Below are positions 1 to 8,436 of a stretch of 64,000 bases of DNA, piece by piece. The stretch comes from Caldalkalibacillus uzonensis (lineage in GTDB: Bacteria; Bacillota; Bacilli; Caldalkalibacillales; Caldalkalibacillaceae): NCBI RefSeq assembly GCF_030814135.1, contig NZ_JAUSUQ010000012.1, positions 1-64,000 of the forward strand, in the 5' to 3' direction. Numbering within the stretch: the first letter of the stretch is position 1; each line of letters opens with the position of its first letter. The notes under the pieces are model-generated. The model did no database searches, was not told the DNA's origin, and worked only from the letters and a program-made list of their open reading frames with translations. The position numbers and the translations under genes were made by a program.

Positions 1-95
<95 letters not shown>

Positions 96-101
96 TGGAC
101 A

Positions 102-132
102 AACCTCGTGAGAAATTCTCGCGAGGTTTTTA
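102..132 (+). terminator. rRNA operon terminator
   Basis: AACCTCGTGAG (102-112) pairs with CTCGCGAGGTT (118-128) around a short AAATT loop and runs into a T tract. It lies just after the 5S 3' end, as expected for an rrn operon terminator. Confidence 0.9.
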
Positions 133-189
133 GTGTAAAAAATCTTGTCTGACATTTATTTTTAGCATCAATTACCCAGGGCTCGTTGA

Positions 190-240
190 TTTATTTTAAT
201 CATATCAAAAACATTGGCAATTTTGGTATGATTAAATAAA
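190..240. repeat. AT-rich inverted repeat upstream of the DinB-fold gene
   Basis: The arm at 190-210 is complementary to the arm at 221-240 over about 20 base pairs, with one bulged T and one wobble, around a 10-nt loop. The repeat lies between the rRNA terminator and the ribosome-binding site at 254-261. It could be an operator, or a hairpin in the 5' leader. No T tract follows it on either strand, so a classical terminator is unlikely. I see no clear promoter for the gene that avoids this repeat. Confidence 0.6.
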
Positions 241-269
241 CATCTAAAAACTAAGAGGGGGATAGTTTA

Positions 270-758
270 GTGGATTATAGGGACGAGGTGCTGTGGAATC
301 AACTGTTTGATGTACGTCAGTATACGTTGCAAATTGTTGAAAATATAAGTGAGAGTATGATCGATATCATTCCCGCTGGACACCATAACTCCATTCGTTG
401 GAATATTGGCCACATCATATATGATCAGGATGTTTGGTTTCATCATTTCATGAAGGATGATATGGATGTGCCTGGATATTATCGGCATTTCTTTGATTTT
501 GGGACGAGTCCTTGCACCTGGAAGCAGGAGCCCCCTGCTTGGAGAGAGCTGGTAGAAGAACTCCGTATCCAACCACACCGTTTAAAAAAGAAATTTGCAG
601 GCAGACTGGATGAACCCTTACAGACCACAACAGAATTAGGAATGGGCAAACTCGGTGAAGTGATTCCACGCACGTTATATCACGAATGGTATCACTTGGG
701 GGTTATCCAGTCCATCAAGCGGTTTGCTGATAGCCGACCAGAAGATGGGGTGAAATAA
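270..758 (+). CDS. DinB-like four-helix metalloprotein (putative)
   Basis: A 162-residue protein beginning at GTG with AGAGGGGG at 254-261 as ribosome-binding site. His48 (NIGH), His138 and His142 (YHEWYH) are spaced as the metal-binding triad of the DinB/YfiT fold, and the length fits that family. Family members include bacillithiol- and mycothiol-dependent transferases and many proteins of unknown role, so no substrate can be assigned. It stands alone between the rRNA operon and the convergent niaR. An AT-rich inverted repeat precedes it and may control it. Fold assignment is fairly safe; function is unknown. Confidence 0.75.
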   Translation: MDYRDEVLWNQLFDVRQYTLQIVENISESMIDIIPAGHHNSIRWNIGHIIYDQDVWFHHFMKDDMDVPGYYRHFFDFGTSPCTWKQEPPAWRELVEELRIQPHRLKKKFAGRLDEPLQTTTELGMGKLGEVIPRTLYHEWYHLGVIQSIKRFADSRPEDGVK

Positions 759-847
759 CCATGAGGAAGATCGAGCACATCGAGCACAGGATTAGAGCAA
801 AGCATGATTAACATTATTAAAGAAATGGGGTATGTTTAAACACCTCT

Positions 848-1387
848 TTAATCTCTTTTAAGTAAGATTCCCTCTGCTTCAAGGGCTTGGCAAGCTTCAT
901 CTATCCGTTTGTCATCATTGGCTTCTACCGTATGCAGGTGTACACCTTCCGTCAGAGAAGAAAGCAGTTTGGCCTGGTTGTCTTGCACTTTACGCAAGAA
1001 ATCATGCACATCCTTTTTTGATTCAACCATTAATGAACCCTGAATTTGGCCATAAATCGGGTGTTCAACGATCACATCAACAACTTTAACACCATGCTCC
1101 ACCAAAATGGTTAACTCCCGCTCCGTTTGCTCAAATGCATGCTGACAAGCAATGACGCGCCGTTTGGGCTGAGGAGATGGGGAGCTAAGATACAAATAAC
1201 CTTGGGGAGTGGCCACGATAGGTTCATTTTTCGCTTTTAAAAGTGCGATATCCTGCACAATGACTTGGCGGCTCACACCGGTTTCCTCAGCAAGAAAGGT
1301 ACCAGTGAGGGGTTTTTTCTTGGATTTTAATAACTCTAACAAATAGTGGCGCCGTTTGTCTCCCAGCAATTTAGACATGTGCTTCAT
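848..1387 (-). CDS. niaR: NiaR, niacin-responsive repressor of NAD biosynthesis
   Basis: An N-terminal winged helix-turn-helix (about residues 5-60) is followed by a 3H domain carrying the EHPIYG motif and the GVHLHT motif near the C-terminus. This is the architecture of NiaR (YrxA), which represses nad genes when nicotinic acid is present. I place the start at the ATG at 1387 (179 residues), because GGAGG at 1393-1397 is then 5 nt away. The upstream in-frame GTG at 1393 overlaps that ribosome-binding site and is unlikely. It lies 91 nt downstream of nifS on the same strand, so the two are probably co-transcribed from the divergent nad control region and NiaR would be autoregulated. Confidence 0.93.
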   Translation of the reverse strand: MKHMSKLLGDKRRHYLLELLKSKKKPLTGTFLAEETGVSRQVIVQDIALLKAKNEPIVATPQGYLYLSSPSPQPKRRVIACQHAFEQTERELTILVEHGVKVVDVIVEHPIYGQIQGSLMVESKKDVHDFLRKVQDNQAKLLSSLTEGVHLHTVEANDDKRIDEACQALEAEGILLKRD

Positions 1388-1478
1388 GGTCACCTCCAGG
1401 CATGCCTGTAAAAAGCTTTAACTGAAGATAAGTGTAAAGGGATCAATACCGGTTTGCAACCTATCTTGATCTTGGTTG

Positions 1479-2654
1479 TTAAGATAAAGCATGACTGCTT
1501 CTGAACGTGCGGATAATCTCTTTTATCTGCTGCAGAAAATAATGGATATCTTCACTCGTTACTCCTCGTCCCAAACTGATGCGCACGGCTTGTTTGGCTT
1601 GCTCGTCGTTATAGCCCATGGCCAGCATAACATGGGACGGGGCCCAGTAGTGAGCATGACATGCTGAGCTGGTAGAAACGGCAATACCCTTTTTGGACAG
1701 TTCCTGCATCAGGGCCTGACCCTCGATTTGCTGACACAAGAAATGAATATGGGTTGGCAAGGCTAAAGAAGCGGGAACCGTCAATTGAATGCCAGGCAGG
1801 GCTTGCAATCCTTCTCTTATTGTTGTGTTCAGTTTAACATACCGGTTCCAATCTTCTGGCTGCCGTTCATGGCTCTGTTTTAAAGCATAGGCGGTACCTA
1901 TGAGACCGGGTACATTCTGTGTGCCCGAGCGCCAGCCATACTCTTGTCCCCCTCCATGGAGCAAGGGAGAAAGGCGGACGCCCCTCTGCACATACAGCCC
2001 TCCAACACCTTTCGGTCCGTAAAATTTATGGGCGGAAAAGGAGAGCAAATCCACTCCCCACTCTTCCACTTGAAAAGGAATTTTCCCCAGTGTCTGTACC
2101 GCGTCACAATGAAAGAATGGTGTTTTCGTTCCCTGTTTCAAACGTTTGGCTTTTATGAGTTGACCGATGGTGTCAATGGGTTGGAGGGTGCCCACTTCAT
2201 TGTTGGCGTGCATGACGGAGACTAGAATCGTGTGCTCGGTTAACATTTGTTCCAGCTTGTACAAGTTGATTTTCCCCTGGCTGTCAACCGGAATATAACT
2301 GATGGTAAATCCTTGTTTTTCAAGAGCGGTACAGGCCGACAGAACGGAATCATGCTCAATGGCACTGACCACAATATGCCGCCCTTGTTGTTGGTACATG
2401 TGAGCAACACCCTTGAGAGCCAGATTGTTAGCTTCCGTTCCTCCGCTGGTTAAGACAACCTTCCCCTGATTAGCCCCTAATAGATGGAGAATCTCCCTTT
2501 TTGCTTGATGCACGGCTTCGTCAGCCCGGTCACCAAAGAGATGCAGACTGCTCGGATTACCAAACACATTCAAGCAATAAGGTTTCATGGCCTCCCACAC
2601 GTGTGGATCTACCGGGGTCGTGGCTGCATGATCAAGATAAACATAACGTGGCAT
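1479..2654 (-). CDS. nifS: NifS-type cysteine desulfurase of the nad locus
   Basis: A 391-residue class V PLP aminotransferase fold. The N-terminus is the family hallmark YLDHAATTP, Lys210 in SFSAHK is the PLP-binding lysine, and Cys332 in SSACHAH is the probable persulfide cysteine. In Bacilli the NifS encoded beside nadBCA is known to help mature the 4Fe-4S cluster of quinolinate synthase NadA. The divergent arrangement with nadB and linkage to niaR support the same role here. The ATG at 2654 has GGAGG about 10 nt upstream. No IscU or SufU scaffold gene is adjacent. Its promoter is inside the shared control region at 2708-2737. Confidence 0.95.
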   Translation of the reverse strand: MPRYVYLDHAATTPVDPHVWEAMKPYCLNVFGNPSSLHLFGDRADEAVHQAKREILHLLGANQGKVVLTSGGTEANNLALKGVAHMYQQQGRHIVVSAIEHDSVLSACTALEKQGFTISYIPVDSQGKINLYKLEQMLTEHTILVSVMHANNEVGTLQPIDTIGQLIKAKRLKQGTKTPFFHCDAVQTLGKIPFQVEEWGVDLLSFSAHKFYGPKGVGGLYVQRGVRLSPLLHGGGQEYGWRSGTQNVPGLIGTAYALKQSHERQPEDWNRYVKLNTTIREGLQALPGIQLTVPASLALPTHIHFLCQQIEGQALMQELSKKGIAVSTSSACHAHYWAPSHVMLAMGYNDEQAKQAVRISLGRGVTSEDIHYFLQQIKEIIRTFRSSHALS

Positions 2655-2707
2655 CCCTTCTAACCTCCAAATAAAAATGGGTGGTCAAAAATTAAAGTTT
2701 TGTTTTG

Positions 2708-2737
2708 AGTATAGGCAAGGTAAACAACATATGTCAA
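2708..2737 (-). promoter_or_regulatory. Leftward sigma-A promoter for nifS-niaR
   Basis: Read on the minus strand, TTGACA (2737-2732) and TATACT (2713-2708) are separated by 18 nt. The -35 box falls inside the left half of the palindrome at 2727-2758, so repressor bound there would block this promoter. Confidence 0.8.
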
Positions 2738-2758
2738 GACACCTGTGTTGACATATGT
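2727..2758. promoter_or_regulatory. Probable NiaR operator, 32-bp palindrome
   Basis: ACATATGTCAA at the left end and TTGACATATGT at the right end are exact reverse complements, with an inner ACACCTGTG-type core. Only the two bases flanking the core and the central CC/GG break the symmetry. It lies between divergent nad genes whose own regulator NiaR is encoded in the locus. It overlaps the -35 boxes of both promoters. Assignment to NiaR is inferred from position and from the ACA/TGT half-site style of known Bacillus sites. A second overlapping palindrome, TTGACATATGTCAA, lies at 2748-2761. Confidence 0.75.
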
Positions 2759-2776
2759 CAACACCCCCACTATAAT
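2748..2776 (+). promoter_or_regulatory. Rightward consensus sigma-A promoter for nadBCA
   Basis: TTGACA (2748-2753) and TATAAT (2771-2776) are both perfect consensus and separated by exactly 17 nt. Transcription should start near 2783. The -35 box lies within the palindromic operator, so such a strong promoter would need repression to be useful. Confidence 0.92.
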
Positions 2777-2842
2777 GAGTCTAAATAAGACAGGATCGCT
2801 TTCATGTCATGGACACAACCTTATGTCAAAGGACGAGAAACT

Positions 2843-4432
2843 ATGAAATCTTATCAAACGGATGTACTGGTTATAGGCAGTGGCATTGCCGGTTTGTATG
2901 CCGCTTTACAACACAGTGAATACGCCCGGGTGATGTTGGTGACCAAATCGGCTTGGCCAGAGAGTAATTCCAGCCAGGCCCAGGGCGGGATTGCGGTTGC
3001 CATAGGGGAAGGGGACTCAGCTGAAGCGCATGTGGAAGATACCCTTCGGTGTGGATGCGGCATCAATGACCGTGAAGCTCTGAATGTACTAATGACCTAC
3101 AGTTTTATGGTACTAGAAGACTTATGTCGTCTGGGTGTTCCTTTTGATGCGGATGAAGCGGGCCAGCTTAAGCTTGGCCGGGAAGGGTTTCATTCATTTC
3201 CCAGGATTATTCATGCAGGGGGAGATGCCACTGGGGCTGCCATCGTGAACACTTTGATGCAGCGGGTACGGGAAGAACCCCAGATTTCCATTTATGAAGA
3301 GGCATTTGTTGAACAATTGGTGGTGGATGGAAACCGTTGTGTGGGTGCCATATTGTTTGCCCGGGGCGAGCATATCCTGGTGCAAAGCGCTGCTGTCGTT
3401 TTGGCTGCCGGTGGTTGCGGCCAGCTTTACAAGGAAACAACCAACAGTTTGTTCAGTACAGGAGATGGCATGGCCTTGGCCTGTGAGGCCGGGGCAGATC
3501 TGGCTGATATGGAATTTGTGCAGTTCCATCCCACGGCTTTGGCTGTACCCGTACATCCAAAACCCTTGGTCTCAGAAGCGGTACGGGGTGAGGGGGGCGT
3601 GTTGATCAATGATGACGGATACGCCTTTATGCCGGAGTATCATCCCTGGGGTGATTTGGCTCCGCGGGACGTGGTGGCCCGTGCCATTTTTGACCAGCAG
3701 CAAAAAGGACAGCACGTCTATTTGGATACGCCTCGTCTCGGACCGGTCTTTGGGGAGCGTTTCCCCACGATTTACCGGCGTTGCCTTCAACTTGGCTTTG
3801 ATCCCGTTAAACAGCCGCTACCTGTCACCCCTGCTGCTCACTTTATCATGGGCGGGGTTTGGACGGATGAGTGGGGGCTCACGTCACTGGACGGATTGTA
3901 TGCTTGCGGAGAGGTGGCGTGCACAGGTGTACATGGGGCTAATCGTTTGGCCAGTAATTCTCTTTTGGAGGGTTTGGTCTTTGCCAAGCGCATTAAGGAG
4001 GCACTTCAACGTGATATGGTAAGGAGACCGGCCAACATGACGGCCAGGGATGTAGTCCCCCGCTTTACAGCACAGCACTACGCTTTCTCTTTCGAGCAGC
4101 TAATAAGTCATCAGGCAACACGCAGACTGCAACAGCTGATGTGGGAGGCTGCCGGATTGGTGAGAACTGAAAGCGGGTTACGGCGACTGGAAGCGACGCT
4201 TCGCCAGTGGGAAGCTATCTGGGCTCACCATCATCCCGTGTGGACCAACATGGCCCGGGTCGCTTTGGCTATTACCCGAGCGGCTCTGGAACGAACAGAA
4301 AGCAGGGGGGCTCATTTTCGGGCGGATTACCCTTACGAACAAGAGGTATGGCAACACAAACGGACAAGGTGGAGGAGGGGCAAAGATGAATCCTCTCTTG
4401 TTGGAGGAACAATTGAAACAAGCGCTCAGTGA
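2843..4432 (+). CDS. nadB: L-aspartate oxidase NadB
   Basis: This flavoprotein oxidises L-aspartate to iminoaspartate, the first step of de novo NAD synthesis. The FAD-binding GSGIAG is at residues 12-17, followed by the SQAQGGIAVA and HAGGDATG motifs of the succinate dehydrogenase/NadB flavoprotein family. I prefer the ATG at 2843 (529 residues), because AAAGGA is 7 nt upstream and the chain then begins just before the Rossmann strand. An in-frame ATG at 2804 would add 13 residues but has a poor ribosome-binding site. The 3' end overlaps nadC by 47 nt, implying tight translational coupling. Confidence 0.96.
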   Translation: MKSYQTDVLVIGSGIAGLYAALQHSEYARVMLVTKSAWPESNSSQAQGGIAVAIGEGDSAEAHVEDTLRCGCGINDREALNVLMTYSFMVLEDLCRLGVPFDADEAGQLKLGREGFHSFPRIIHAGGDATGAAIVNTLMQRVREEPQISIYEEAFVEQLVVDGNRCVGAILFARGEHILVQSAAVVLAAGGCGQLYKETTNSLFSTGDGMALACEAGADLADMEFVQFHPTALAVPVHPKPLVSEAVRGEGGVLINDDGYAFMPEYHPWGDLAPRDVVARAIFDQQQKGQHVYLDTPRLGPVFGERFPTIYRRCLQLGFDPVKQPLPVTPAAHFIMGGVWTDEWGLTSLDGLYACGEVACTGVHGANRLASNSLLEGLVFAKRIKEALQRDMVRRPANMTARDVVPRFTAQHYAFSFEQLISHQATRRLQQLMWEAAGLVRTESGLRRLEATLRQWEAIWAHHHPVWTNMARVALAITRAALERTESRGAHFRADYPYEQEVWQHKRTRWRRGKDESSLVGGTIETSAQ

Positions 4433-5231
4433 AGATCTGGGTTTTGGGGACCGGACTACGGAGGCGGTGGTACCGGAGGAACAGTGGGCCAGCGGTGTGG
4501 TGATGGCTAAAGGAAAAGGGGTCATGGCCGGTTTGCCTGTTTTTGAACGGGTGATGCAGCTAGTTGACCACCGGGTGGAAATAACGCCTCTCGTTAAAGA
4601 GGGTGAGCGTGTTGAACAAGGGACATCTGTGATCCGTATACAAGGACCAACGCGGGCCATTTTAACCGGAGAGCGTGTGGCGCTCAATTTTTTGCAACGT
4701 TTGTCTGGCATTGCCACTGTGACGCGCCAAGCTGTTGATTTAGTTAAAGCCTACGGGACCAAGATTGCTGATACCCGCAAGACCACACCGGGTCTACGCA
4801 TGTTGGAAAAATATGCAGTCACCGTTGGAGGTGGAATTAATCACCGCCTGCGGCTGGATGACGCTGTGTTAATTAAAGATAACCATATTCATGCCGCGGG
4901 TGGGCTAAGTGAGGCAGTGCATCGGGTAAGGGAAAAAATGGGTCACACCATCTTTATCGAAGTGGAAACGGAAACCCTCGCGCAGGTGAAGGAAGCTGTG
5001 GCACTGAAGGTAAACGGCATTTTGTTGGATAACATGACCGTTCCCCAATTAAAGGAGGCAGTTGCCCTTATTCCTACTTCGATTATCAGTGAAGCTTCCG
5101 GCAATATGCGCCTGGATCATTTGGAAGCTGTGGCCCAAACCGGGGTACAGGTGATTTCTATCGGCTGGCTGACTCACTCTGCTCCATCCCTTGACCTTAG
5201 TCTTAATTTGGATGGCAGCATTAAAAAGTGA
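4386..5231 (+). CDS. nadC: Nicotinate-nucleotide pyrophosphorylase NadC
   Basis: Quinolinate phosphoribosyltransferase, converting quinolinate and PRPP to nicotinate mononucleotide. Recognisable motifs are DTRKTTPG (129-136), GGGINHRLRLDD (148-159) and KDNH (164-167), all part of the type II phosphoribosyltransferase active site. The length of 281 residues is normal. The ATG lies inside the end of nadB, preceded by GGAGGAGGGG, so translation is coupled. It sits between nadB and nadA, as in other Bacilli. Confidence 0.97.
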   Translation: MNPLLLEEQLKQALSEDLGFGDRTTEAVVPEEQWASGVVMAKGKGVMAGLPVFERVMQLVDHRVEITPLVKEGERVEQGTSVIRIQGPTRAILTGERVALNFLQRLSGIATVTRQAVDLVKAYGTKIADTRKTTPGLRMLEKYAVTVGGGINHRLRLDDAVLIKDNHIHAAGGLSEAVHRVREKMGHTIFIEVETETLAQVKEAVALKVNGILLDNMTVPQLKEAVALIPTSIISEASGNMRLDHLEAVAQTGVQVISIGWLTHSAPSLDLSLNLDGSIKK

Positions 5232-5243
5232 AGGGGGATCACA

Positions 5244-6347
5244 ATGGCACATTCACAGATAACATCCTCTTCCATCTCGCCGGAGATGTTTTATCAATGG
5301 CCAGTGGATGAGATGGAAGCACGGGTGAGAGTGATTAAACAAGCCTTAGGGGATCAACTGGTTATTTTGGGTCATCACTATCAAAAGGATGAAGTGTTCC
5401 AGTTTGCTGACTTTACGGGGGACTCTTTAAAGCTGGCCCAACTGGCGGCCCAGCAGCACCAGGCATCTTACATCGTGTTTTGTGGTGTTCATTTTATGGC
5501 GGAAACAGCGGATATTTTAACCTCTGAGAACCAAACAGTGATCTTGCCTGACTTAAAAGCAGGCTGCTCTATGGCTGACATGGCCGATGATGAGCAGGTG
5601 GAAGAATGTTGGGAACTGTTAACGGGGCTGTTTGGTGAAACCGTTGTACCCATGACCTATGTGAACTCCACAGCGGCTATTAAAGCGTTTTGCGGACGGA
5701 ACGGGGGCTTAACGTGCACCTCTTCCAATGCCAAAAACATGTTTCAGTGGGCTTTCAGCCACAAGGAGCGCATCTTGTTTCTGCCTGATGAACATTTAGG
5801 GCGCAACACAGCCGCCAGCCTGGGTATTCCATTGGAGGAGATGGCGGTTTACAATCCTCTGACCAGGGAACTGGAAGACGTCCAGACAAAGCTGGACCAG
5901 ATTAAGGTCATCTTGTGGAAAGGTTTCTGTTCTGTCCATCAGCATTTTAAGCTGGAACATGTTCAGCGGGTCAGACAAAGGGATCCGCAGATCAAAGTGC
6001 TGGTTCATCCCGAGTGCAATTATGATGTGGTCTGTGCCGCTGATGACAGCGGTTCAACGGAGTATATCATCAGGCAGGTGCAAAACGCACCACCAGGCTC
6101 CAAATGGGCCATCGGCACAGAAGTGAATCTGGTGCAGCGCTTGGCCAAAACCCACCCTGAGCAGACCATCCGCCTGCTTAACGATATGATCTGTCCCTGT
6201 TTAACCATGAACCGGATTGACCTGCCCCACCTGCTGTGGGCATTAGAGAGTATTTATCAAGGGGATAATGTCAATCCCATTCGCGTTGAAACAGATGTTG
6301 CCCGAGAGGCCCGCATTGCCCTTGAGCGAATGTTACAAAACTCTTAA
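5244..6347 (+). CDS. nadA: Quinolinate synthase NadA
   Basis: Condenses iminoaspartate with dihydroxyacetone phosphate to quinolinate, using an oxygen-sensitive 4Fe-4S cluster. The likely cluster ligands are Cys108 (AGCSMAD), the cysteine of KGFCSVHQ near residue 228, and a cysteine of the CPC motif near 317-319, matching the three-cysteine pattern of the B. subtilis enzyme. The 367-residue length is that of the long Bacillus form. It follows nadC by 12 nt and ends the nadBCA operon. The divergent NifS is the presumed sulfur donor. I see no convincing terminator before the convergent transporter gene. Confidence 0.97.
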   Translation: MAHSQITSSSISPEMFYQWPVDEMEARVRVIKQALGDQLVILGHHYQKDEVFQFADFTGDSLKLAQLAAQQHQASYIVFCGVHFMAETADILTSENQTVILPDLKAGCSMADMADDEQVEECWELLTGLFGETVVPMTYVNSTAAIKAFCGRNGGLTCTSSNAKNMFQWAFSHKERILFLPDEHLGRNTAASLGIPLEEMAVYNPLTRELEDVQTKLDQIKVILWKGFCSVHQHFKLEHVQRVRQRDPQIKVLVHPECNYDVVCAADDSGSTEYIIRQVQNAPPGSKWAIGTEVNLVQRLAKTHPEQTIRLLNDMICPCLTMNRIDLPHLLWALESIYQGDNVNPIRVETDVAREARIALERMLQNS

Positions 6348-6380
6348 AACAAGTTGAGCCACAACCCCTCTGTCTATGAT

Positions 6381-7550
6381 TTAAACACGGTGCTTTCCTG
6401 GAGAACTGAGCACATAAATGGCAGCAGGCATAAAACATAACACCATCAGCAACACAGCCAGTCCCTGATGGGTAAAGAAAGAGAAAACAAGCATAAAAAA
6501 AGCGAAGAAAGCAAGGCGCCCCACACACAGCCAAAATTCCCGGTACACCAAGAGTTCCATCATTTTGGTGAGCGGGTTGGCCTTGGCCCTCTCGACCTGG
6601 TGACGGATCGTGGCAAATTGGTTGGTGTATGATGGCACCCACAGCATAGGCAAGGAAATAGAGATCACCGCGTTAAATACAATAAAGGTGAGCGGAGAAG
6701 GAACCCATAGCGTCAGGGTCACCACTGTTGACACCAGCACACCAAGGGAAGCAATCATATGATGAAAACGTGCTAACAACTGGTGCCCTACGATGAAGTA
6801 AGTGAGCACACTAAGTAAAGCAAACAGCATGTTCCATTCACCCACATGCCACTCATTTTGCAAAAAAAGATAGATAAAAATACTGAGTGACATATGTACA
6901 AAGGCAAAGAAAAAGCCGAATGAAGCAGCAGACAATCCCACATACCCCATCCGCCGGTTAGCTGGCATAACAAAACCCCTACGCCGGTAGGCTTGAGGAA
7001 TACGCACCCGTGGTGTAAGCACGCTGCTTACTGTTTGACAGCCTAAAATGGACAGAGTCGTTATCAAAGCGGCATCATACCCCTGATGATAAATGATCCA
7101 CCCCGCTAGCGGAGGGGTGAGCAATTGAGCCAGGCCATTAATGATATATTGCAGGCTCATCACCCAGGATAAACCATCTTGATCACTAAACCACAGGGAA
7201 TAAAAATTAAGTCCGGCAAAAAACAAGCCAATGTACAGGCCGTTCAGCGCTCCTGCCAAACCGATAGCCACTAGCTGATCAAAGGTTCCCAGCAATAAAT
7301 AGAGATACAAAGTGCAAGCAGCCACCGATGAAAGCAGAAAATTGAGGCGGCTGCCCAGCCGGTACATCAAATAAGCACCTAAGACAAACCCGGCAAAAGT
7401 AAATGCAAAAGAACACATTTGGAAAAAACCCAGCAGCACCAAGCTGGCATGCTGTTTCCAGACAAAAATGTTTAAAAACAGGGTAGAGAAAGAGTAGGCT
7501 ACAGCAAAAAAGCTAAAAGTGCCGAACATAAAGAATAAGGGAACCTTCAT
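6381..7550 (-). CDS. Major facilitator-like 12-TM membrane transporter
   Basis: A very hydrophobic protein of about 389 residues with roughly 11-12 predicted membrane spans in two halves separated by a basic loop (YRRRGFVMPANRRMG) near the middle. This fits a major facilitator fold. I do not recognise a substrate-specific family. It lacks the obvious sugar-porter motifs of the niacin transporter NiaP, so a link to the adjacent nad operon is only positional. Start choice is uncertain: the ATG at 7550 begins just before the first span and has AAAGGA upstream; GTG at 7577 and ATG at 7562 are in-frame alternatives. It converges on nadA. Confidence 0.75.
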   Translation of the reverse strand: MKVPLFFMFGTFSFFAVAYSFSTLFLNIFVWKQHASLVLLGFFQMCSFAFTFAGFVLGAYLMYRLGSRLNFLLSSVAACTLYLYLLLGTFDQLVAIGLAGALNGLYIGLFFAGLNFYSLWFSDQDGLSWVMSLQYIINGLAQLLTPPLAGWIIYHQGYDAALITTLSILGCQTVSSVLTPRVRIPQAYRRRGFVMPANRRMGYVGLSAASFGFFFAFVHMSLSIFIYLFLQNEWHVGEWNMLFALLSVLTYFIVGHQLLARFHHMIASLGVLVSTVVTLTLWVPSPLTFIVFNAVISISLPMLWVPSYTNQFATIRHQVERAKANPLTKMMELLVYREFWLCVGRLAFFAFFMLVFSFFTHQGLAVLLMVLCFMPAAIYVLSSPGKHRV

Positions 7551-7707
7551 CCTTGGACACATCCTTTGCTTGTACACATGTATATGAGCAAAGGAGGACT
7601 GGCATGCAGAGGTTGGCTCCCTTCTCGGAAAATATTATGGTATAGTTATGCATAATCTTTATTAAACTGTTTTTATACATGACACCAGACCGGGGAGGGA
7701 ATGTGGA

Positions 7708-8436
7708 GTGGAACTTTTGCACGAGTGGTGGATGTGGATTCAGGATGCCCATTACCTGGAGATTACATTGCGTTTACTGCTGGCTACCTTACTTGGCGGC
7801 TTGGTTGGCCTGGAAAGGGAGCAAAGCAACCGCCCGGCCGGTTTCCGGACTCATATTTTGGTTTGTGTGGGCTCGGCTTTGATCATGCTGATCTCCATAT
7901 ATGGCTTTGAGGAATATATTAAAGAGAGAAGCCAGTACGGCTATGTGGTGGCTGACCCGGCCCGCCTGGCTGCCCAAGTGGTCAGCGGCATCGGCTTTTT
8001 GGGAGCAGGCACCATCCTCGTGCATGGCTTTGCCATTCGTGGCTTAACTACAGCGGCCTCGCTGTGGGTTGTGGCTGGCATCGGGCTGGCCTTAGGAGCA
8101 GGTTTCTACTTTGGTGCCATTCTGTCCACCGGGCTGGTACTGTTGAGCCTGATTGTCTTGAACCGCTTTGAATCGGTCGTGCTGCACAAGAGTTATTTTC
8201 ACCGTCTGGTGATCAAAGTGGAGGATCAGCCAGGAAAGTTAGGGGAGATTGCCACCACACTCGGTGAGCAAAATGTGAACATCCGCAAGTTGTCGATAGA
8301 GGAGGCCGGCCAGACAGATCCTGGTACGGTGCGCCTGGTGCTTAATATTCGTATTCCTAATACGGTCTCCATGGCCATATTAGTGGATCAATTGCGAAAT
8401 TTGGATGGTGTCAAAGAGGTGAGCATCGATAAATAA
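7708..8436 (+). CDS. MgtC/SapB-family membrane protein with C-terminal ACT-like domain
   Basis: The N-terminal half carries the MgtC signature: GGLVGLEREQSNRPAGFRTH and ARLAAQVVSGIGFLGAGTI, within about five membrane spans. The C-terminal roughly 80 residues (EDQPGKLGEIATTLGEQNVNI) look like an ACT regulatory domain. MgtC proteins are linked to growth at low magnesium and to ATP synthase control, but the role in Bacilli is not settled. The GTG at 7708 is chosen because GGGGAGGG lies 8 nt upstream. The gene is flanked by a divergent transporter and a hairpin after its stop. Confidence 0.88.
   Translation: MELLHEWWMWIQDAHYLEITLRLLLATLLGGLVGLEREQSNRPAGFRTHILVCVGSALIMLISIYGFEEYIKERSQYGYVVADPARLAAQVVSGIGFLGAGTILVHGFAIRGLTTAASLWVVAGIGLALGAGFYFGAILSTGLVLLSLIVLNRFESVVLHKSYFHRLVIKVEDQPGKLGEIATTLGEQNVNIRKLSIEEAGQTDPGTVRLVLNIRIPNTVSMAILVDQLRNLDGVKEVSIDK

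Follow-up and report, generated by a model that had tools for sequence, protein, structure and literature searches.

The nad locus and its divergent promoters

Two gene sets diverge from a 188-bp gap (2655-2842) in the window, the term used here for the whole 64,000-nucleotide stretch of Caldalkalibacillus uzonensis DNA that was analysed. Leftward, on the minus strand, a gene for a nifS-like cysteine desulfurase recognized by domain search (1479..2654) comes first in its unit and is followed by niaR (848..1393; start codon approximate), encoding a niacin-responsive repressor. The plus strand carries nadB (L-aspartate oxidase, 2843..4432; TIGR00551, 567 bits against a cut-off of 453), nadC (nicotinate-nucleotide diphosphorylase, 4386..5231; TIGR00078) and nadA (quinolinate synthase, 5244..6347; TIGR00550). 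These domain matches bear out the gene names nifS, niaR, nadB, nadC and nadA proposed in a preliminary description of this DNA. The nadB start at 2843 was picked by eye from a stretch resembling a ribosome-binding site; the mechanical frame opens at 2804. A scan of 1300-1600, covering the nifS-niaR junction, found neither promoter- nor terminator-like sites, which fits a single unit in which niaR would regulate itself. Beyond nadA, adjoining and convergent with it, lies a 398-aa frame (6381-7577, minus strand) that by eye resembles a membrane transporter and had no match in an NCBIfam search. The only RNA family above threshold in 1-8000 was 5S rRNA; its gene (1-95, plus strand) is already under way where both window and contig start, so that the nad locus may closely follow the end of an rRNA operon.

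The niaR product has the composition of the NiaR (YrxA) repressor, an N-terminal HTH_11 domain (PF08279, 61 bits) and a C-terminal 3H domain (PF02829, 120 bits; cut-off 25 for both), and its nearest solved structure is that of B. halodurans NiaR (7cv0, E 1.3e-52). Residues H85, E93, H152 and H154, invariant in 18 aligned NiaRs, align with H83, E91, H150 and H152, given as the metal/niacin residues of BhNiaR in PMC7713382. A scan of viral contigs with this protein found no relatives.

Within the gap, two sets of sigma-A hexamers point away from each other with spacers in the 16-18 bp range. The nadBCA promoter (2748..2776, plus strand) combines TTGACA (2748-2753), a 17-bp spacer and TATAAT (2771-2776), a 12/12 match; that of nifS-niaR (2708..2737, minus strand) has TTGACA (2737-2732), an 18-bp spacer and TATACT (2713-2708), matching at 11/12. 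The claim of two divergent strong promoters, the nadBCA one of perfect consensus, thus holds.

Both -35 hexamers lie inside a 32-bp imperfect palindrome (2727-2758, centre 2742.5), as previously described; 14 of its 16 pairs match, and its score was reached in none of 5000 dinucleotide shuffles of the gap. A second palindrome on the rightward -35 had been placed at 2748-2761; it is indeed present, its true extent being the perfect 20-mer GTGTTGACATATGTCAACAC at 2745-2764, the sole perfect palindrome of at least 16 bp in the 64-kb window. A perfect 20-bp palindrome arose in 1 of the 5000 shuffles. Underlying the larger symmetry is a row of three ACANNTGT modules in 12-bp steps (2727-2734, 2739-2746 and 2751-2758) which together make up the 32 bp. 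The ends of ACANNTGT are the same on either strand, so that repeating the module creates larger palindromes, and the 32-bp palindrome results. The full module pair, ACANNTGTNNNNACANNTGT, occurs exactly at four places in the 3.88-Mb genome, two in the gap and two inside reading frames.

Candidate NiaR cores on both -35 boxes

The type I NiaR operator is given as TGT-N4-ACA (PMC7713382), and the gap contains it twice. Candidate core 1, TGTCAAGACA (2732..2741, centre 2736.5), has as its left six bases the nifS-niaR -35 on the minus strand; the right six bases of candidate core 2, TGTGTTGACA (2744..2753, centre 2748.5), are the nadBCA -35 on the plus strand. The cores stand 12 bp apart with the module ACACCTGT common to both, an arrangement of two TGT-N4-ACA cores that none of the 5000 shuffles produced. 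The earlier proposal that the half-sites include the -35 hexamers therefore survives in the form that each -35 lies inside a candidate NiaR core. When the 64 kb were ranked with a symmetric matrix trained on 54 relatives' gaps (window, sibling species and one metagenome-derived relative, L115, left out), core 1 came first with 27.8 bits, core 2 second with 16.4 and the third place scored 6.1. In the whole genome TGTCWWGACANNTGT occurs without mismatch only in the nifS/nadB gap.

Further candidates in the gap were set aside. A third core, TGTCAACACC at 2756-2765, was dropped with a matrix score of -0.6 for the 20-base site 2751-2770, and TATGTCAA at 2822-2829 was taken as chance. The type II NiaR operator, ACA-N5-TGT, is that of the Thermotogales; its one match in the gap, ACAACATATGT at 2724-2734, is absent in the sibling species and a match is found in 8 of 60 relatives' gaps, so that it is unconserved and probably fortuitous.

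Across the genome, neither pattern exceeded its control. With at most one mismatch, the 20-bp module pair was found at 14 places in the genome vs 16 for the pattern read backwards, and TGTCWWGACANNTGT gave 18 rows vs 20 in the control. Fourteen of the TGTCWWGACANNTGT rows are outside the gap, and 12 of these overlap frames of at least 100 codons, some at the frame end only; the remaining two, L182 and L186, overlap none. With the exact module pairs outside the gap both lying within open reading frames and the near-matches no commoner than in controls, we do not claim a wider NiaR regulon in this genome; weaker sites may exist. A transporter gene with a near-match (L040/L194) was rejected, as the match falls within its frame and only a general drug-transporter model fits the product, below the cut-off. 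The genome also holds a frame resembling nicotinate phosphoribosyltransferase.

Taken with the regulator encoded next door, these features make it very probable that the gap is a shared operator-promoter region of NiaR (YrxA), with two cores, each on one -35, from which NiaR would repress both units with nicotinic acid. Put in physiological terms, candidate sites on both start signals would very likely let a vitamin-B3 sensor shut down both NAD-synthesis gene sets, and itself, when B3 is plentiful. We infer from sequence the binding, its occupancy by one or two dimers, the start sites and the repression, which would proceed as follows. NiaR carrying zinc and nicotinic acid would bind TGT-N4-ACA as a dimer. 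With core 1 covering the nifS-niaR -35, core 2 the nadBCA -35 and the two overlapping in the row of three ACANNTGT modules, bound repressor would hide both -35 boxes from RNA polymerase; nicotinic acid would thereby turn off niaR itself along with de novo NAD synthesis and the cysteine desulfurase that serves it. With a separate core for each -35, occupancy may be by one dimer or by two. On 22-bp sites two dimers 12 bp apart would overlap, and joint binding may perhaps be impossible.

The preliminary description had instead placed one repressor at the centre of the 32-bp palindrome, closing both arms together. Such a single NiaR dimer on 2742.5 would account for the high symmetry and for the position of both -35 boxes inside it; nonetheless, we regard it as very unlikely. 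Cores of the published type centre here on 2736.5 and 2748.5; the midpoint of the palindrome, 2742.5, lies between these two, at the centre of the ACACCTGT module. The palindrome is a consequence of the repeated modules. Moreover, the dyad drops to 12/16 pairs in the sibling species and to 10/16 in L115, and what the gaps of most relatives have in common, by eye, is the TGT-N4-ACA core and not the 32-bp dyad (the class A gaps described below). Joint repression of both arms, niaR included, stands as in the arrangement published for Bacillus (PMC7713382); the palindrome as the unit of binding does not. The earlier interpretation is therefore partly supported, right in outline and wrong in register, and its choice of NiaR as the repressor is very likely correct, the candidate operators matching the published TGT-N4-ACA (PMC7713382).

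That the palindromes belong to another regulator, or to chance, is harder still to believe. The perfect 20-bp palindrome is admittedly more symmetric than NiaR sites need; against this, the site, the adjoining regulator gene and the conserved relatives all agree, and the shuffles make chance very unlikely.

A weightier objection to a two-core NiaR operator is that only core 1 may be a true operator. Core 2 would then owe its existence to a strong TTGACA that follows the outer TGT of the first operator; a dimer on core 1 would repress nifS-niaR directly and would act on nadBCA by obstructing the adjacent polymerase. The difference in score (27.8 vs 16.4 bits) speaks for this explanation, as does the fact that ACA comes free with TTGACA. 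Comparison with the sibling species (L043) cuts both ways. Core 1 is identical there, and the promoters occupy the same places, with spacers of 17 and 17 and a nadBCA promoter that is again 12/12. Its core 2, TATATTGACA, lacks the G of TGT, keeps 5 of 6 fixed letters and scores 11.7 bits, weaker still than in the window; even so, it stands in phase with one mismatch, so that the phase of core 2 is common to both species of the genus. The sibling also preserves most of the outer modules, including the outer TGT at 2756-2758, which lies beyond the -35 and argues against a mere by-product. Within the window, core 2 is far above the next best site (6.1 bits). Among relatives, 52 of 60 gaps lack two cores 12 bp apart, in keeping with a single operator; such pairs nevertheless recur in 8 of the 60. 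On balance we consider the one-operator explanation possible and rather unlikely.

The alignment with the sibling adds a point on register. Of the 10 pairs in the 20-bp palindrome (centre 2754.5), 9 are kept there, two of them through changes on both sides (simulated p ~0.009, for a test picked after seeing the alignment), which suggests that the right-hand dimer may use another register, with its dyad at 2754.5.

Divergent gaps of relatives and descent of the layout

The relatives' gaps were assembled from 25 regions around relatives' NiaR, of which 12 with a nifS match were used and 13 left out, and from 80 further loci, the best 80 of at least 597 stretches. Of the resulting 92 loci, 27 had no nifS match and 5 no divergent nad gene, leaving 60 gaps (57 next to nadB, 3 next to nadA), the window itself excluded; since near-copies are included among the relatives counted, the 60 are not independent. 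TGT-N4-ACA was present in 56 of the 60 gaps, against a mean of 3.9 and a maximum of 12 in 200 shuffled sets. Exact TGTCAAGACA occurred in 44 and TGTCTTGACA in 5, so that 49 contained one or the other (shuffled mean 0.025). The operator is conserved in the nifS-nadB gaps of relatives, which speaks for core 1. An alignment of related gaps had been suggested earlier as a check; it upheld the TGT-N4-ACA cores, core 1 above all, and not the 32-bp dyad, which loses pairs in the sibling where core 1 is unchanged.

The four gaps devoid of TGT-N4-ACA have TGACAAGACA in its place. In all, TGACAAGACA replaces TGTCAAGACA in three Halalkalibacter and two Listeria gaps (L128, L130, L139, L140 and L074), an identical single change shared by two distinct groups.

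Promoter position relative to the core divides most of the gaps into three classes. Class A, defined by the core TGTCAAGACA or TGTAAAGACA with window and sibling left out, comprises 45 of the 60. Here the core occupies the nifS -35 position, and in 41 of 45 the core contains TTGACA with a TAnnnT -10 spaced 17 or 18 bp from it. Upstream of the core comes the nad promoter, which overlaps that of nifS and has TTG at -32 and TG at -12, counted from the core, in 45/45; from these distances, the core would sit near the nad transcription start. All 45 also show a weaker match 12 bp left of the core (5 of 6 letters, never 6), which coincides with the nad -10 region and the outer operator and so is perhaps no second site. 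Class A includes two genomes from the same order as the window (L049 and L050), in which nadA rather than nadB adjoins nifS.

In class B (5 of 60: L061, L063, L064, L066 and L067) the nad -35 falls within the core. Class C consists of the window, its sibling, whose second core is one letter short, and L115, a metagenome genome on a long branch with a rightward promoter of 9/12; its feature is a pair of cores at a distance of 12 bp, both of which contain TTGACA. Another eight gaps belong to none of the three classes, namely two from Listeria, three from Halalkalibacter, L055, L056 and L103. In L055 and L056, two genomes of one family, the core is TGTCTTTACA near the estimated nadB start, and a simple scan gave no clear promoter. 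The eight gaps with two TGT-N4-ACA cores at 12 bp are six of class A, L103 and L115; among them, only L115 has TTGACA in both cores, the second core otherwise being without it.

A pattern search covered 398 genomes of the taxonomic class. With at most one mismatch, TGTCAANACANNTGTNTTGACA, which requires TTGACA in each core, was found in three: the window's own, that of the sibling, with one mismatch, and G314, where the match falls within an open reading frame and was dropped as an operator. This third match (L199:1501-1522) is probably a coincidence; the frame there looks by eye like an isochorismatase/nicotinamidase. A looser two-core pattern, TGTNNNNACANNTGTNNNNACA, turned up in at least 164 of the 398, is often expected by chance and was used for no count.

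The trees bear on how these layouts are related. NadA separates class A plus others (50 rows) from B plus C (8 rows) with support of 100/98; in the NiaR tree the window pair is split off from class A plus others (53 rows) with 92/88, and once L115 is taken out, it shares an unresolved fork with class A. The class C forms are thus placed between A and B by the NadA tree, and less surely by the NiaR tree. The evidence that class C bridges A and B is mixed, and the class may instead have branched late from A; L049 and L050, of the same order and with class A gaps, speak for a window form derived from A. As a tentative and rather doubtful proposal, in the window's genus the -35 of each back-to-back promoter would sit in its own NiaR core, the cores, with one module in common, would take up two dimers cooperatively in a 12-bp phase, and the arrangement may be an intermediate by which the nad promoter changed operator side with control kept. 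If so, class C would join the two single-core forms, with the core on the nifS -35 or on the nad -35.

Comparison with known NiaR systems

In Bacillus the nifS and nadBCA operons have a common promoter region (PMC7713382). The nifS-yrxA/nadBCA locus of the NiaR/YrxA regulon has the same genes in the same divergent order as the window, and the same position of a core at the nifS -35; B. spizizenii (L111) and other close relatives stood in for the B. subtilis gap in this comparison. The window differs from class A gaps in that its nadB promoter is shifted 48 bp to the right and has its -35 in the second core, which makes the promoters back-to-back.

For B. halodurans, NiaR with niacin shifts a nifS-nadB oligonucleotide with a Kd of about 0.5 uM, and the DNA used contains TGTCTTGACA (PMC7713382). 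Read on its other strand, that DNA matches the gap of H. halodurans (L113) by eye, aligned on core 1. Halalkalibacterium (Bacillus) halodurans thus resembles the window in its TGT-N4-ACA core and zinc/niacin residues, and DNA homologous to the window's gap was bound in the gel shift (PMC7713382); it differs in having one TGT-N4-ACA core and a rightward promoter of 7/12 upstream of it. The niaX, pnuC and nadC sites of Streptococcus pneumoniae are 22-bp palindrome-like elements with TGT-N4-ACA, with two candidates at nadC (PMC5343564); unlike in the window, these sites do not lie in a nifS-nadBCA divergent gap, and at nadC only one of the two was functional (PMC5343564).

Class B gaps are like the window in that the core (TGTCTTGACA or TGTATTGACA) holds the rightward nad -35, with the -10 17-18 bp away and 11/12 matches each, and unlike it in having a single core whose left half is not TTGACA for the nifS side. 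Paenibacillus lacisoli (L103) shares two cores 12 bp apart, both scoring high (16.1 and 23.2 bits); in this species and in the six class A gaps with such pairs, the second core, 12 bp to the right, is without TTGACA, unlike in the window. In L081 and L095, the two class A gaps that were scored, the second core reaches 6.1 and 4.0 bits and by eye runs into the ribosome-binding site.

In the literature searched, which included PMC5343564, PMC3735044 and PMC7713382 but not the primary YrxA/NiaR-regulon papers, no description was found of a layout in which both -35 boxes have a core. That NiaR jointly controls nifS and nadBCA is established knowledge, so much so that its presence in the window was to be expected; what seems to be new is the core on each -35, and the window very likely holds a conventional NiaR switch whose layout is unusual. 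Around one conserved core the promoters are arranged in three ways: the nad promoter may stand on either side of it, or each -35 may have a core to itself. Together these arrangements form a small natural series for following how a promoter moves relative to a repressor site with control kept, and for the question of cooperation between NiaR dimers at 12 bp.
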